The translations under genes were made by a program, and so were the position numbers. Under the pieces are notes generated by a model that saw only the letters and a program-made list of their open reading frames with translations, was not told the DNA's origin and did no database searches. Of a stretch of 64,000 nucleotides of DNA, positions 32,379-38,496 are shown piece by piece; the first letter of the stretch is position 1, and every line of letters starts with the position of its first letter. The DNA is from Solirubrobacteraceae bacterium (lineage in GTDB: Bacteria > Actinomycetota > Thermoleophilia > Solirubrobacterales > Solirubrobacteraceae), in assembly GCA_017882455.1 (NCBI GenBank), contig JADGPL010000003.1:62001-126000 (forward strand). Direction: 5' to 3'.

Positions 32379-34054
32379 GGCAAGGGAGAGGTGGCGCTGA
32401 TCCGCAACGCCCCCTTGACGGGCGTTGCGCCGGCCGTGCGAGCCAGCACCAGCTGTCCGACAGATAGCCCGTTCCGGGGCTGCAGAAAGTAGAAGCGGTG
32501 GTGCAGGCCCAGGGCGCGGGCCTGCGAGCGCAGGATGCCACGGGTGCGCACCCAGCGCAGGAGCTTCGAGCCGGGCACTTCGGGGAGCAGCTGCTCGCCG
32601 AGCGCACGCATGCTCGCGACGCGCTCGCTGCTCGGCACGCCGGAGTCGTCGGCGAGGGTCACGTGGATTCCCCTGGCGGCCAGCTCGGAGGCCACCAGCG
32701 GGATGTCAGCCGAAGGCGCGTGCACGATCAGGCCCACATCCGCCTGGGAGGTGTTCACGTGGACGAGCGTGTCCACGTCCAGCACCTTGGCGGCGACCGT
32801 GCTCACCTCGTCGGTGGACATCATCCACGAGCCGACGCCGATCAGCAGCACCAGCTGCGTGGCGAGGGCCGCCGCGCGCATCTTCCAGATCGGGATCGGA
32901 CGCACCCTTCGCCGTGCCCTCAGCACCACGTCCACGGCGGCCGGACCCTCGGCGTCCGCCTGGCCGCCCTGCCGGGTCGCCTGCACCCCGTCGCCGGCCG
33001 CAAAGCTGGCCTGAACGTGCTCGCGCAGCTCGTCGGTGTCGTTCGCCAGCCTCAGCAGGTCCAGCGTCGCCATCGCCCGCGTGTTGAGACGCGCGTGACC
33101 GACCGGCAGCCCGTATGAGACCACCGGCGTCCCCGCGGCCTTGGCCTCCAGGCAGGTCACTCCGCCGGTGGAGTGCACCAGCACGTCGGCCGCCGCCAGC
33201 AGGTCGGGCATCTTGTCGGTGAACTCGTATACGTGCACACGGGGTTCGCCGCCGAAGGTCGATCGCAGCTTCTCGGCGAGCTGCTCGTTGCGCCCGGCCA
33301 GGCACACGATGCTCGACACCTCGGGCACCCTCGTGAACTCCTCCACGGCGCCCGCGATGTCGCCCACTCCCCAGCCGCCGCCGGAGACCACGACCATGCG
33401 CCCGTCCTCGGGCAGGCCGAGCTTGCGACGCGCCTCGATCGGGCACCGCGGCTCCAGGAACTCGGCCGAGATCAGCGGACGCACCAGCTCGACGCTGCCG
33501 CGTCCGGCGATCCGCTCGACCGAGTGCATCGACTCACCGTACATGACCAGATGCGTGTCGATGCCGGGCTGGGCCCAGAAGAACAGGCCCGTCAGATCGG
33601 TGATCGTGGCGACCGTCGGGCAGCTCACCACGCCGGTGCGCCGCAGCCTCGCCAGCACGACCGTCACGGCCGGGTAGGTCGAGACGATCACGTCGGGCTC
33701 GTACTCTGCGATCACCCGGGCGAGCGGGCGGGAGCCCAGCGCGCACAACAGCCGCCGGGCCACCATCCGCACCGGCAGCACGTGCTCGAGCAGCCAGTAG
33801 ATGACCGTGTAGGTCCAGGGAAAGAAGCGCAGCTGCACGCGGTAGCCGTCCTCGACCACCGGACGCAGCAGCGGGCCCATCGCGGCGAGACCGTCGATGA
33901 CCGCGACTTCGGCCGGCTTGGGGGACTCCTCGATCTGCTGGGCGAGCGCCCGGGCAGCGGCAGCGTGACCCTCCCCCACGTCGGCGGACAGGATCAGAAC
34001 GCGGCTGGGCCCGGGGGTCCGGCGCGATGTACGTTTGCGGTTGCGGCGTCGCAT
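32078..34054 (-). CDS. MurG/MGDG-synthase-like glycosyltransferase fused to a membrane helix and a degenerate NodB-like domain
   Basis: This 658-residue protein starts with a GT28-type domain (about 17-360): [32 protein letters not shown] and the donor-site motif [21 protein letters not shown] membrane helix follows (about 393-412), then a 430-603 region whose end, [20 protein letters not shown], resembles the last strand and helix of polysaccharide deacetylases but lacks the Asp and His ligands. Residues 604-658 are low-complexity antisense of the DMT-type gene. It probably builds a glycolipid or envelope glycan. ATG 34054 is chosen because the frame upstream is unlike any domain. Confidence 0.78.
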
Positions 34055-34187
34055 ATGGGTTGTGAGCGCGCCCGCGGACGGGCGTCTCAGCAAAACATGC
34101 GCCCGCGTTCGGGGGCCCCCGGCGGGCGCAGCTATGTCATCAGGGTACCGGTCCCGCAAGACACTCGCAGGCCGGGCAGACGTAACA

Positions 34188-35699
34188 ATGGATCGCATCG
34201 AGGCCACGACTCCCATACCCCGCGCCCGCGCCAAAGGCACAGCGCCCGGCTGGAGCAGCCGCCCCGATGCATCCGGAGCGCCGACGCGAATCGCGAGCGC
34301 GCTCGGCGCGCTGGGGCTCCTCGGCGTGCTCATAACCGTCTTTCTGGTGAGCGCCGGCGCCGCCGGATCCCCCTCGCAGTACGTCCCCGCGCGTGCGGGC
34401 GGCTGGCCCGGCTGGCTCGCCGGTCCGCTGGCCGAATTCGACATGAGCCTCTCGAGCGGCACCTTTCAGACGTTCATGCTGGTGATGTGTGCGAGCTACC
34501 TGCTGGTGCTCGCCACGGCGCGCTCGCTGCCCATCGCGGCGCTCGCGGGCACGATCGTGGGAGCGCACGTGCTGCTCCTGCTCGGCCCGCCCCTGATCTC
34601 CCAGGACGTGTTCGGGTATCTGGCGTTCGCACGCATGGGGGCGCTGCACGGCCTCGACCCCTACACCCATGTGGCCGCCGAAGCCTTCACCGACCCCTCC
34701 TATGCGTTCACCTTCTGGCACTTCCAGCACTCTCCCTATGGGCCCCTGTTCACGCTCGCCACCTATGCCATCGCCCCACTGGGACTGGCCGGCGGGCTGT
34801 GGGCGCTGAAGGGGATCGCGGTCCTTTCGAGCCTCGCGGCCGTCGCGCTCGTCGCGCGCGCGGCGTCTCGCCTCGGGCACTCCGCCGGCTGGGCGGCGGC
34901 GTTCGTGGGCCTGAACCCGGTGCTGCTGGTGCTGGCGGTCGGCGGCGCCCACAACGACACGCTGGTGATGGCCGCGCTCGCCCTCGCGCTGGCACTTACC
35001 GCAAGCGCCGACTCGCCCGCGCGCATGCGCGCGGGCGCGAGTGCGCTGGTCGCCGGTGTGGGAGTCAAGCTGACGGCCGGCCTGGTGCTGCCCTTCCTCA
35101 TGCTCGCCCCGGCGCGCGGGCGCGGGCGCGAGCGCCTGCAGGTGGCGGGTGCGGCGGCGCTCAGCCTGCTGGCGCTACTCGCCCTCGGCGTGATCGGCTT
35201 CGGCGTGCACGCGCTCGGCTTCCTCGGCGCGGTGGGGGAGCAGCAGCAGCTGGTGGCCACCCACAGCATCCCGGCCGAGACCGCGCGGCTGGTGGGCCTG
35301 AGCGGGACGCCCTCCTGGTGGCGCCACCTGTTCGTGGCCGGCTTCCTCGCGATCCTCGCGGTGTGCCTGTGGCGGACCGCCCGCGGGGCGGACTGGCGCG
35401 TGGCCGCCGGCTGGGCCACGCTCGCGCTGCTGCTCTCCACGGCGTGGCTGTTGCCCTGGTATGGGATCTGGCTGTTGCCGCTAGCGGCCGTCAGCGGCGA
35501 TCGGCGCCTGCGCTGGGCCGCGCTTGTCTTCTGCGCCTATGCCGTCCTCATCCACCTGCCGCTCGCCGACCCGCTGCTCAGTCCCGGAAGGCACATCTCC
35601 CACCCGCGCCTGCACCTCGCCGTGCCCGGCCTGCGACACGGCCTGGAACTCACCGGTTTCCAGATCCTTGGCCACGTGCACCTCGATCTCGGCTGGTGA
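34188..35699 (+). CDS. GT-C mannosyltransferase-like membrane protein (MptB/GT87 type)
   Basis: This 503-residue protein has about twelve hydrophobic helices. The segment [20 protein letters not shown] followed by HGLDPYTH contains the acidic loop of polyprenyl-phosphomannose-dependent GT-C enzymes. [37 protein letters not shown] and [18 protein letters not shown] fit MptB-like alpha-1,6-mannosyltransferases. Donor and acceptor are inferred. ATG 34188 is preferred; the longer frame to 34035 runs into the divergent glycosyltransferase. The last 73 codons overlap the oppositely oriented WecA-like gene by 219 bases. Confidence 0.82.
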
Positions 35700-36830
35700 T
35701 GCCTCCGGGCGCAGCAGGCGATGGCGCATGGCGTCCAGGCGCCTGAACTTGAGGATCTCGAGGACGTAGACGAGGTACGCGCTGGCGGCGACCACGAGCA
35801 GCCCGAGACCGAGCAGGACCAGCGTCCAACCGGTGTGCAGGTGGCCTTTGTGGTCGCTGTAGGGGATGAAGCGCAGCGCCAGGGCCAGTCCGGCCAGCAT
35901 CAGCGTCCAGGCGTACAGGTAGGCGATCGTGCGCCTGCTGGAGAGCCCGATCCGGGCCATGCGGTGGTGGAAGTGCTCGCTGTCGGGGCGGTAGATCGGC
36001 TGGCGGTACTTCAGCCGCTTGAGCACCACGAAGGTCGTGTCCAGGAACGGCACCGCCAGCAGGATCAGCGGCAGCACGAAGGACACGACGGCCGCGGTCT
36101 TGACGGCGCCCTCGACCGTGATCACGCCCATCAGCAGGCCGAGCAGGTTGGCTCCGCAGTCGCCCATGAAGCTGGAGGCGGGCGGGAAGTTGAAGAGCAG
36201 GAAGCCGAGCGCCGCGCCGGCCGTGAGGGCCGCGAGCACGCCCGGCTGCTGGCGGTCGAGGTCGAAGGCGATCACGGCCATGGTCGCGGCGATGATCACG
36301 CAGACGCCGGCCGCCAGGCCGTCGACCCCGTCTGAGAAGTTGACCACGTTCATCATCAGCACGAGGCCGAGGACGGTCAGCACGGGGCCGGCGTTGGTGA
36401 CACCGGCGTTGGGGAAGCTGAGACGCCCGATGAAGGGCAGCGTGATCGCCTTGACGGCCACGCCGTAGTGCACCACGATCACCGCCGCCAGCACCTGACC
36501 GACGAGCTTGACCGCCGGGTGCAGGTCGAAGCGATCGTCGAGGGCGCCCACGAGCGTGATCAAGGCGGCCGCGATCAGCACCCCCTCCCACAGGTTCTGC
36601 TGCTTGAAGTAGCCGGCCGGCATGAAGATCAGCCCGGCCACGAGCGCCCCGGCGAAGATCGCCAGTCCGCCGAGCAGCGGGGTGGGCCGTTCGGAGAGGC
36701 CCCGCTCGCGCGGCTCGTCGATCGCCCCCACCCTCCTGGCGAAACGCATGGTCAACGGGGTCAGCAGCGCGGTCACGGCCGCTGCGACCAGAAAGGCGTA
36801 AAGCGCGTCGAGCTCGTTCGGATGCGCCAT
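35481..36830 (-). CDS. WecA/MraY-family undecaprenyl-phosphate sugar-1-phosphate transferase
   Basis: This 449-residue polytopic enzyme has RPTPLLGGLAIFAGALVAG, the DD pair at 98-99 (LVGALDDRFDLHPAVKL), NVVNFSDGVDGLAAG at 161-175 and the SEHFHHRMARIG loop (284-295). These are the catalytic and substrate-binding motifs of polyprenyl-phosphate GlcNAc-1-phosphate transferases. It starts teichoic-acid-like or arabinogalactan-type glycans on the membrane. The start is ATG 36830. Residues after about 378 lie in the 219-base antisense overlap with the mannosyltransferase gene and look unstructured. Confidence 0.9.
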   Translation of the reverse strand: MAHPNELDALYAFLVAAAVTALLTPLTMRFARRVGAIDEPRERGLSERPTPLLGGLAIFAGALVAGLIFMPAGYFKQQNLWEGVLIAAALITLVGALDDRFDLHPAVKLVGQVLAAVIVVHYGVAVKAITLPFIGRLSFPNAGVTNAGPVLTVLGLVLMMNVVNFSDGVDGLAAGVCVIIAATMAVIAFDLDRQQPGVLAALTAGAALGFLLFNFPPASSFMGDCGANLLGLLMGVITVEGAVKTAAVVSFVLPLILLAVPFLDTTFVVLKRLKYRQPIYRPDSEHFHHRMARIGLSSRRTIAYLYAWTLMLAGLALALRFIPYSDHKGHLHTGWTLVLLGLGLLVVAASAYLVYVLEILKFRRLDAMRHRLLRPEASPAEIEVHVAKDLETGEFQAVSQAGHGEVQARVGDVPSGTEQRVGERQVDEDGIGAEDKRGPAQAPIAADGR

Positions 36831-36886: not shown

Positions 36887-36981
36887 CTCCTGGCGCATGC
36901 GCCAGGAGCAGGGCGGTGCATGCACCGCCCTGTGGGAGCCGCACATGTGCGGCTCCCGGTCTCGCCACATGTGGCGAGACC
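36887..36981. repeat. Cluster of four back-to-back perfect palindromes
   Basis: Four perfect palindromes are packed into 95 bases: 36887-36908 (22 bp, centre GCATGC), 36909-36932 (24 bp, centre GCATGC), 36934-36957 (24 bp, centre ACATGT) and 36958-36981 (24 bp, centre ACATGT). Gaps between them are 0, 1 and 0 bases. All share a central CATG, yet the arms differ (CTCCTGGCG, CAGGGCGGTG, GGGAGCCGCA, GGTCTCGCCA). In RNA each would form a 9-10 bp stem with a CAUG tetraloop. The cluster lies 24 nt after the glyA stop and 56 nt before the WecA-like start, in the glyA-wecA transcript. Confidence 0.92.
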
Positions 36982-37005: not shown

Positions 37006-38313
37006 CTAGACGACTGCTGCTGCGCCCAGGCCCTCGTACAGCGGGTAGCGCTCCACGATCGCGGCCACCCGCTCGGCCAGCTCGCCCGCGCGCGAGTCGT
37101 ATTCGGGCGTGAGGGCCACCGCCAGGATCCGCCCGAGCTCGGCGAAGTCCTCGCGCTGCAGGCCCCTGGTGGCGAGAGCCGGGGTGCCGATGCGCAGGCC
37201 CGAGGCTTCCATCGGCGGGCGCGGGTCGAAGGGCACGGCGTTGCGGTTGACCGTGATCTGGATCTCGTGCAGCCGGTCCTCGGCCTGTTTGCCGCTGAGC
37301 TCCGGCTGGGCCTCGCGCAGGTCCACCAGGATCAGGTGCACGTCGGTGCCGCCCGTGAGCACGTTGACGCCGTGGGCGGGCGGGATCGAATCAAGCAGCT
37401 CCTCGGCCAGCGCCCGGGCGCCGTCCACGGTCCGGCGCTGGCGCTCGGCGAACAGCTCCGAGGCGGCGATCTTGAAGGCAACCGCCTTGGCCGCGATCAC
37501 GTGCTCGAGCGGCCCCCCCTGCTGGCCTGGGAACACGGCCGAGTCGATCTTCTTGGCGTACTCCTGCTTGCACATGATCACGCCGGCCCGGGGACCGCCG
37601 AGGGTCTTGTGCGTGGTGGTCGTCACGACGTCGGCGCCGTGGTCGAACGGGCTCGGATGAAGCCCGGCGGCGACGAGACCGGCGAAGTGGGCCATGTCGA
37701 CCATCAGCAGCGCCCCGACCTCGTCTGCGATCTCGCGGAAGCGCGCGAAGTCCAGCTCGCGCGGGTAGGCCGACCAGCCGGCCAGCAGCATCTTGGGACG
37801 GCGCTCGCGGGCGATGCGGGCGACCTCGTCCATGTCGATCAGGCTGCTCTCGCGATCGACCTCGTAGGCGGCGATGTCGTAGAGACGGCCCGACACGTTG
37901 ATCTTCATCCCGTGCGTCAGGTGGCCGCCGTGGGCCAGCGAGAGGCCCATGATCGTCTCGCCCGGCTGCAGCAGGGCGTGGTAGACGGCCGCGTTGGCCT
38001 GCGAGCCGGAGTGCGGCTGGACGTTTGCATGCTCGGCCCCGAACAGCGCCTTGGCGCGGTCGATGGCCAGCTGCTCGGAGATGTCCACCCACTCGCAGCC
38101 GCCGTAATAGCGGCGGCCGGGATAGCCCTCGGCGTACTTGTTGGTGAGCACCGAGCCCTGGCATTCGAGCACCGCGCGGGGCACGAAGTTCTCGGAGGCG
38201 ATCATCTCCAGGGTGCGCTGCTCGCGCTCGAGCTCGCCGCGCAGGACCTCGGCGATCTCGGGGTCCACCTCGGCCAGCGGGCGGTTGAAGTAGTCGGGGC
38301 TCAGCTCGTTCAC
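37006..38313 (-). CDS. glyA: Serine hydroxymethyltransferase
   Basis: This 435-residue PLP enzyme interconverts serine and glycine with tetrahydrofolate. The PLP lysine is in [14 protein letters not shown], and [18 protein letters not shown] and [17 protein letters not shown] are diagnostic. I choose GTG 38313 ([17 protein letters not shown]), with GGAG at correct distance; the longer frame to 38478 would run through the riboswitch. Expression is probably controlled by the ZTP riboswitch in its leader. tsaC lies upstream, and the palindrome cluster directly downstream. Confidence 0.97.
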
Positions 38314-38345
38314 GGCGCTCTCCTTGGCAGGCGATGAGGACTCAT

Positions 38346-38420
38346 GTGCCCAGGCGCGCGGCGGGTGCGCTGACCGCTTCCCGGTGGTCGCTTCCACCTC
38401 AGGGCGCCAGTCGCGGCAGC
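38346..38420 (-). promoter_or_regulatory. ZTP (pfl) riboswitch upstream of glyA
   Basis: On the minus strand the glyA leader contains the conserved ZTP aptamer blocks in order: CGCGACTGGCGCC (38415-38403), then GGTGGAA and CCACCGGGAAGC, and the terminal CCGCCGCGCGCCTGGGCA (ending near 38347). The GACTGGCG and CGCCTGGGCA pair is the signature of this class. ZTP/ZMP accumulates when 10-formyl-tetrahydrofolate is short, and glyA is a known regulon member. The aptamer ends about 32 nt before the GTG start, leaving room for a translation-control expression platform. Confidence 0.9.
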
Positions 38421-38436
38421 TTCCGAGGAGGCTAGC

Positions 38437-38458
38437 ACCCCATGCGGGGCACAGGCAG
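38437..38458. repeat. Dispersed repeat module A, copy 1
   Basis: The 22-base segment starting ACCCCATGCGGGG and ending CACAGGCAG recurs at 63402-63423 with a single difference (ATGCG versus ATTCG). It includes a CCCC/GGGG stem. It lies between tsaC and the glyA riboswitch, outside any gene. The matching copy also lies between genes. Confidence 0.6.
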
Positions 38459-38496
38459 GGCATGCGCGGAATGCGCACACGCGGAATCTCCGAGCC

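Follow-up and report, generated by a model that had tools for sequence, protein, structure and literature searches.

Repetitive extragenic palindromes (REPs) are 20-40 bp long and fall into a GTAG and a CGTC superfamily; they carry the GTAG or CGTC tag, have conserved stems with frequent G-T pairs and, in the GTAG class, are found with a Y1 transposase (PMC3733652). Hairpin clusters without U-trails near stop codons are reported to terminate transcription in several phyla (PMC8355165). Double-hairpin and other repetitive hairpin elements occur in fungal, algal and sponge mitochondria, according to papers that cite the original description by Paquin et al. 2000 (PMC2800124, PMC7218506). Hairpins can be both created and mended by template switching (PMC8794818), and the perfect arms of nematomorph mitochondrial inverted repeats have been read as active maintenance (PMC6649704). 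Here we describe an array of four CATG-centred palindromes located between glyA and a wecA-like gene in a 64,000-nucleotide stretch of a Solirubrobacteraceae genome (GCA_017882455.1, contig JADGPL010000003.1, positions 62,001 to 126,000), referred to below as the window. The array is one copy of a dispersed, lineage-restricted family of gene-end elements that was previously unnamed.

Tandem palindromes in the window and across the order

Positions 36887-36981 of the window consist of four perfect palindromes (22, 24, 24 and 24 bp), all centred on CATG and separated by gaps of 0, 1 and 0 bases. An earlier note, made from the letters of this DNA, had reported these palindromes, and both their sequence and their arms were verified. 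Its statement that the array is not a tandem duplication also held, every unit retaining its own self-complementarity. The four-palindrome array is far outside chance expectation. The window includes five palindromes of 22-24 bp, every one with a CATG centre, while none longer than 20 bp was found in 30 dinucleotide-Markov sequences of window length.

The array was used as a query against the window's own genome (G000; 3.3 Mb in 51 contigs), and other loci were found, each a run of three to five perfect 20-24 bp palindromes with different arms. The pattern CATGYN{16,22}RCATGYN{16,22}RCATG matched this genome 29 times and its reversed control not once. Nearly all of the 29 matches are further perfect-palindrome arrays, giving about 20 arrays in the genome, and no CATG palindrome of at least 18 bp was seen outside arrays in 220 kb of sampled sequence; the window has one lone unit, at 35014-35037. 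In the order Solirubrobacterales (201 genomes), arrays are frequent in the same genus, where their number ranges from 0 to about 20 per genome, and they also occur in two or more further genera of the family. The collected set comprises 124 distinct arrays with 419 units.

A stricter pattern, scanned against 84,980 species genomes, matched 110 stretches. Among the matches listed, those with palindromic arms are nearly all from Solirubrobacterales metagenome genomes, many from peat or soil, and two have only a broader actinobacterial assignment. The listed matches outside the order (from Ktedonobacter, Gordonia, Streptomyces, Pseudomonas and other genera) did not pass the palindrome test and represent simple repeats or chance. 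Five loci from other taxa (L185, L248, L249, L255 and L259) include tandem repeats with a GCGCATGC-type core and no palindromic arms, which are unrelated short tandem repeats. Viral carriage was sought in 2.9 million viral contigs, a search that did not extend to a plasmid collection, and yielded five pattern matches, none of them palindromic. No Rfam 15 family scored above its gathering score, the best scores being far below it. The family is unnamed as far as the open papers searched show; these papers also gave no account of the architecture, in agreement with the earlier note, which knew of none.

Arrays are built from a very regular unit. Three units are present in 89 of the 124 arrays, four in 21 and five in 9, with a maximum of seven. 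Unit centres are 24 bp apart in 211 of 295 cases and 23-26 bp apart in 293, with gaps of 0-2 nt between abutting units. The stem length is sharply 10 bp. Counted from the centre, arms pair in 97-100% of units through position 11 and in 86% at position 12, and beyond it pairing is at chance at most; the half-site is thus 12 bp long and sharply bounded. CATG forms the centre of 413 of the 419 units. Since CACG, TATA and CTTG also occur, with good arms, the centre is a four-base loop rather than a strict dyad. On each side of CATG, the next two positions are a purine and a pyrimidine almost without exception (YRCATGYR), and the outer positions of this core show essentially only transitions. From position 5 outward (positions 5-10 were tested) all four pair types are used, and there is no family-wide stem sequence. 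Units follow a preferred order within arrays, with a weak GYTGTT flank at one end, which the transcript of the upstream gene meets last in 45 arrays and first in 17.

Loops of TATA, CACG, CGTG or CTTG with perfect or near-perfect arms were also observed in the left flank of L137, in the flanks of L147 and L154, at L012:1004-1119 and in L286. The wecA-side flank of the window array has a GGTTT that resembles the GYTGTT flank of the family. The half-matched CATG in the same flank is a possible decayed unit, judging by its letters. Half-matched CATG sequences, which may be decayed units, are also located beside L073, L081 and L086, in their left flanks.

Joint change of the two arms

Of 3771 arm pairs, 37 are mismatched (about 1%), and four of these are G-T. 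Read on the sense strand, at arrays where a single upstream gene sets the direction, 20 mismatches were counted, including four G-T and one A-C. For comparison, hairpins after stop codons were collected in the same genomes by a single search rule that allows G-T. G-T pairs make up 0.4% of pairs in those with a CATG loop versus 13.1% in those with other loops.

Orthologous units differ by 64 both-sided changes and three one-sided ones, and 33 of the 64 are transversional. The earlier note had proposed compensatory arm changes as support for structure, and such changes proved massive. Over 70 locus pairs, which share genomes and are not mutually independent, both-sided changes amount to 0.268 per pair and one-sided changes to 0.024, next to a nearby third-codon-position divergence of 0.303; transversions account for 57% of the both-sided changes. 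The arms therefore change together at near-neutral speed. Independent arms would give mostly one-sided change, and compensatory selection would be expected to be slower than neutral and biased to transitions. A transversional double change cannot pass via a wobble pair, and this disfavours a purely RNA-level element. Pairing perfection, both-sided transversions and the near-neutral rate are all explained by arm-to-arm copying, by template switching on a folded strand or with help from the replacement of whole units. Taken together, these joint changes and the near-absence of G-T pairs suggest that one arm is copied onto the other in the DNA, and that selection on RNA is not the sole cause.

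The arrays share with palindromes maintained by template switching (quasipalindrome correction) the removal of mismatches, both arms changing together without wobble intermediates. The nematomorph repeats (PMC6649704) are similar in that their arms are nearly always perfect and may lie in coding sequence, and there too mismatch removal was inferred and template switching proposed as the mechanism. They differ in having arms of up to 142 bp, no tandem arrays and no fixed core, and in belonging to animal mitochondria. The double-hairpin elements, so far as the citing papers describe them, resemble the arrays in their adjacent hairpins, in being optionally present between related species and in lacking flanking duplications (reported for Allomyces); they are, however, mitochondrial and not known to be related to the arrays.

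Position, inheritance and dispersal

Genes were called by a codon-composition heuristic rather than a gene finder, so gene starts are rough and the context of some loci is uncertain. The median distance between array and stop codon is 13 bp (n = 97) and is at most 30 bp in 69 cases. Neighbouring genes are tandem, convergent and divergent at 39, 29 and 4 arrays, versus 126, 28 and 23 of ordinary neighbours in G000; arrays are thus over-represented between convergent genes. The adjoining genes are mostly ordinary and encode class II tRNA synthetases, FtsZ, sigma-70 factors, ribosomal protein S7, DXP synthase, pyrophosphatase and acyl-CoA dehydrogenase. In the window, the array lies 24 bp behind the glyA stop codon and about 57 bp from the probable wecA start (Table 1).

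The WecA-like gene is conserved in 23 congeneric genomes, whose loci were retrieved through DNA similarity by a search with a wrong frame of its ORF. None of these 23 loci includes an array, although some are cut by a contig end or have other neighbours. On this distribution, the copy behind glyA was probably gained in this lineage. The earlier note had considered an element of the glyA-wecA transcript; an element specific to this locus is not supported, as the family recurs at many other loci. It had also held that absence from this locus in close relatives would mark the array as an accident; because of the same recurrence, that rule would wrongly give accident here.

Many arrays are common to two to six species at orthologous loci, where the flanking genes are clearly orthologous. 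G054, a genome of another genus, includes about ten alike arrays at unrelated loci, the best of them 88-97% identical. Their homology is confined to the array, the flanks being unrelated, and a stop codon often lies 3-14 bp away on either side of a copy. No target-site duplication was seen at the G054 copies. Orthologous sharing together with these paralogues indicates that the element is inherited and, on occasion, also dispersed.

In size and distribution the arrays are similar to REP/BIME (bacterial interspersed mosaic element) palindromes. Both are palindromes of 20-40 bp that are dispersed in tens of copies 3' of genes, between tandem and convergent genes and occasionally in the flexible linkers of genes; both are clustered and unevenly present among species, and the CGTC REPs likewise lack a dedicated transposase. 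The arrays are nevertheless not members of the REP class. Their CATG units have no GTAG or CGTC tag, the array end carrying GYTGTT instead; arm sequence is unconserved in genome or family, only length and core being kept; G-T pairs, often seen in REPs, are nearly absent; runs of three to seven abutting units with a fixed YRCATGYR core are the rule; and a REP-associated tyrosine transposase (RAYT) type enzyme is missing from 23 of 24 congeners. The arrays may still plausibly work like REPs at gene ends.

Table 1 Features of the window and of the arrays located within coding sequence
Feature	Position	Strand	Remarks
Palindrome unit 1, CTCCTGGCG-CATG-CGCCAGGAG	36887..36908		perfect, 22 bp; closest to wecA
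Palindrome unit 2, CAGGGCGGTG-CATG-CACCGCCCTG	36909..36932		perfect, 24 bp
Palindrome unit 3, GGGAGCCGCA-CATG-TGCGGCTCCC	36934..36957		perfect, 24 bp
Palindrome unit 4, GGTCTCGCCA-CATG-TGGCGAGACC	36958..36981		perfect, 24 bp; closest to glyA stop
wecA-side flank of array	36862..36886		extra half-matched CATG; GGTTT near array
glyA (serine hydroxymethyltransferase)	37006..38478	-	longest open reading frame (ORF); name from the earlier note, fits the translation
WecA-like gene	35481..36830	-	probable start MAHPNELDALY.. at 36830; 3' of array, same direction
Lone perfect 24-bp CATG palindrome of array-type form	35014..35037		in glycosyltransferase-like ORF 34035-35699 (+), codes SPARMRAGA
ABC-F linker arrays	L079:1333-1403, L136, L160, L312, L323, L325		in frame in the two translated

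Near-identical 18-bp palindromes, GTATARCCATGGYTATAC, are present near two arrays (L074:1045-1062 and L082:1301-1318). From their form, the GTATARCCATGGYTATAC palindromes appear to be a separate site, perhaps a regulator operator.

Mechanism, function and meaning

We consider it slightly favoured (probability about 0.55) that the arrays are REP-like gene-end elements made of tandem 24-bp palindromes, whose symmetry would be renewed by template copying and which would be transcribed as hairpins. Each unit would fold on single-stranded DNA, on the lagging strand or in a cruciform, into a 10-bp stem with a 4-nt CATG loop. A polymerase switching template across the folded unit could then copy a mutation of one arm into the other, renewing perfect symmetry without a second chance mutation. 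The transcript of the upstream gene would run into three to five very stable hairpins directly past the stop codon, and the array would act as a terminator or 3'-end barrier that needs no U-tract and works in either direction. Copies would spread rarely to new gene ends, by a route other than REP transposase.

Folding predictions agree with these steps. For the transcript of the window array, the predicted fold is four hairpins side by side (-80.6 kcal/mol, z -9.3); the single DNA strand folds likewise (-49.9, z -9.3). As in an intrinsic terminator, a stable hairpin closely follows the stop codon; a classical U-tract is missing. The clustered-hairpin terminators (PMC8355165) are alike in having several hairpins within 15 bases, at most 80 bases after the stop codon, and in needing no U-trail. 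They differ in being ordinary hairpins defined by their fold, with no fixed loop or stem length, no perfect pairing and no dispersed family. The tight fit behind stop codons and the convergent-gene excess suit a direction-independent stop or 3'-end barrier, and from its sequence and position such a putative role of the arrays is likely.

Several observations weigh against this combination of copying and termination. No U-tract follows the window array, and the family averages 0.57 T per 8 nt past the stem. An ABC-F (Uup-like) gene has an array at one and the same locus in six species, within the linker that precedes the C-terminal part; as it is in frame in both species translated, it is probably translated as well. 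A terminator that worked efficiently at this place would truncate the gene, so that the in-frame copy speaks against strong termination at that site. Some of the both-sided changes could be due to replacement of whole units. In these genomes, other hairpins keep 13% G-T and are not perfected; generic template switching is thus insufficient, and YRCATGYR, the tight 4-nt CATG loop or a further factor is needed. A more far-reaching reading, doubtful in our judgement, is a dedicated system of these bacteria that would recognise YRCATGYR, write or rewrite 12-bp half-sites as perfect palindromes and lay arrays at gene ends. That this system would amount to sequence-independent palindrome-making machinery is an equally tentative proposal.

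The same data bear on the other ways of explaining the arrays. Selection on mRNA for a run of CAUG-loop hairpins, serving as terminator, 3'-end stabiliser or protein-binding RNA, with arms coevolving by ordinary compensatory mutation, would fit the location behind stop codons, the 45:17 preference for one unit order with respect to the upstream gene, the strong RNA folding with its conserved loop and the convergent-gene excess; use in both directions would moreover disfavour G-U. Wobble pairs are, however, almost absent even in the sense strand (four G-T and one A-C among 20 mismatches), while other 3' hairpins carry 13% G-T, and the double changes, which occur at near-neutral speed, are transversions without a G-U route in more than half of the cases. 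The RNA hairpin element proposed in the earlier note is therefore disfavoured in its purely RNA-level form, which we consider unlikely. Somewhat less unlikely, although still improbable, is a selfish miniature element without host service, copied by a recombinase or transposase that reads YRCATGYR-tipped DNA hairpins, with perfect symmetry arising from the enzyme's own hairpin intermediate. The paralogous arrays of G054 with their unrelated flanks, the range from 0 to about 20 arrays among congeners, the absence at 23 congeneric wecA loci, the in-frame insertion within a protein linker, and the sharp-edged 12-bp half-sites with their short GYTGTT flank would all suit it. It has to contend with the lack of target-site duplications, with many arrays that are old and stay at orthologous sites, and with the enzyme itself, since no transposase was found: the Y1 transposase domain (PF01797) is present in one of 24 congeneric genomes and not in G000, and reverse transcriptase, in eight of 24, does not track array number. 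REP transposase and reverse transcriptase were both rejected as drivers on these counts.

A protein that reads DNA structure or YRCATGYR at clustered sites (a nucleoid protein, gyrase or another control of gene-end topology) would account for the nearly invariant CATG, the alternating YRCATGYR core whose outer positions show essentially only transitions, the clustering of at least three units and the location between convergent genes, where supercoils meet. The core is the part of the CATG-reading protein suggested in the earlier note that stands; a sequence-reading protein needs no complementary arms of free sequence, so that the always complementary arms and their near-neutral turnover are left unexplained, no candidate protein was identified, and we give this explanation very little credence. 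Chance or an assembly artefact might come to mind, as the genomes are mostly metagenome-assembled, but recurrence at orthologous loci in independent assemblies already refutes it, in addition to the empty reversed control in G000 and palindromes far outside random expectation; its probability is negligible.

The SbcD hairpin nuclease scored above cut-off in 33 of the 201 genomes of the order, none of which has a true array; within the genus only G125 has it, and G125 is without arrays. This exclusion is a weak lead, being a small effect confounded by kinship.

In bacteria, it is normally a conserved sequence by which dispersed palindromes are recognised, whereas here the symmetry and an 8-bp core are conserved. 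The arms drift at a near-neutral rate yet stay about 99% matched, and thereby offer, in nature, a record of copying between arms, which has otherwise been studied chiefly with engineered reporters and in long repeats of organelles. They also caution that covariation alone is no proof of selection on RNA structure. Should the arrays end transcripts as well, they would be a gene-end part that is mobile or can be copied, in a group of soil bacteria that has been little studied.
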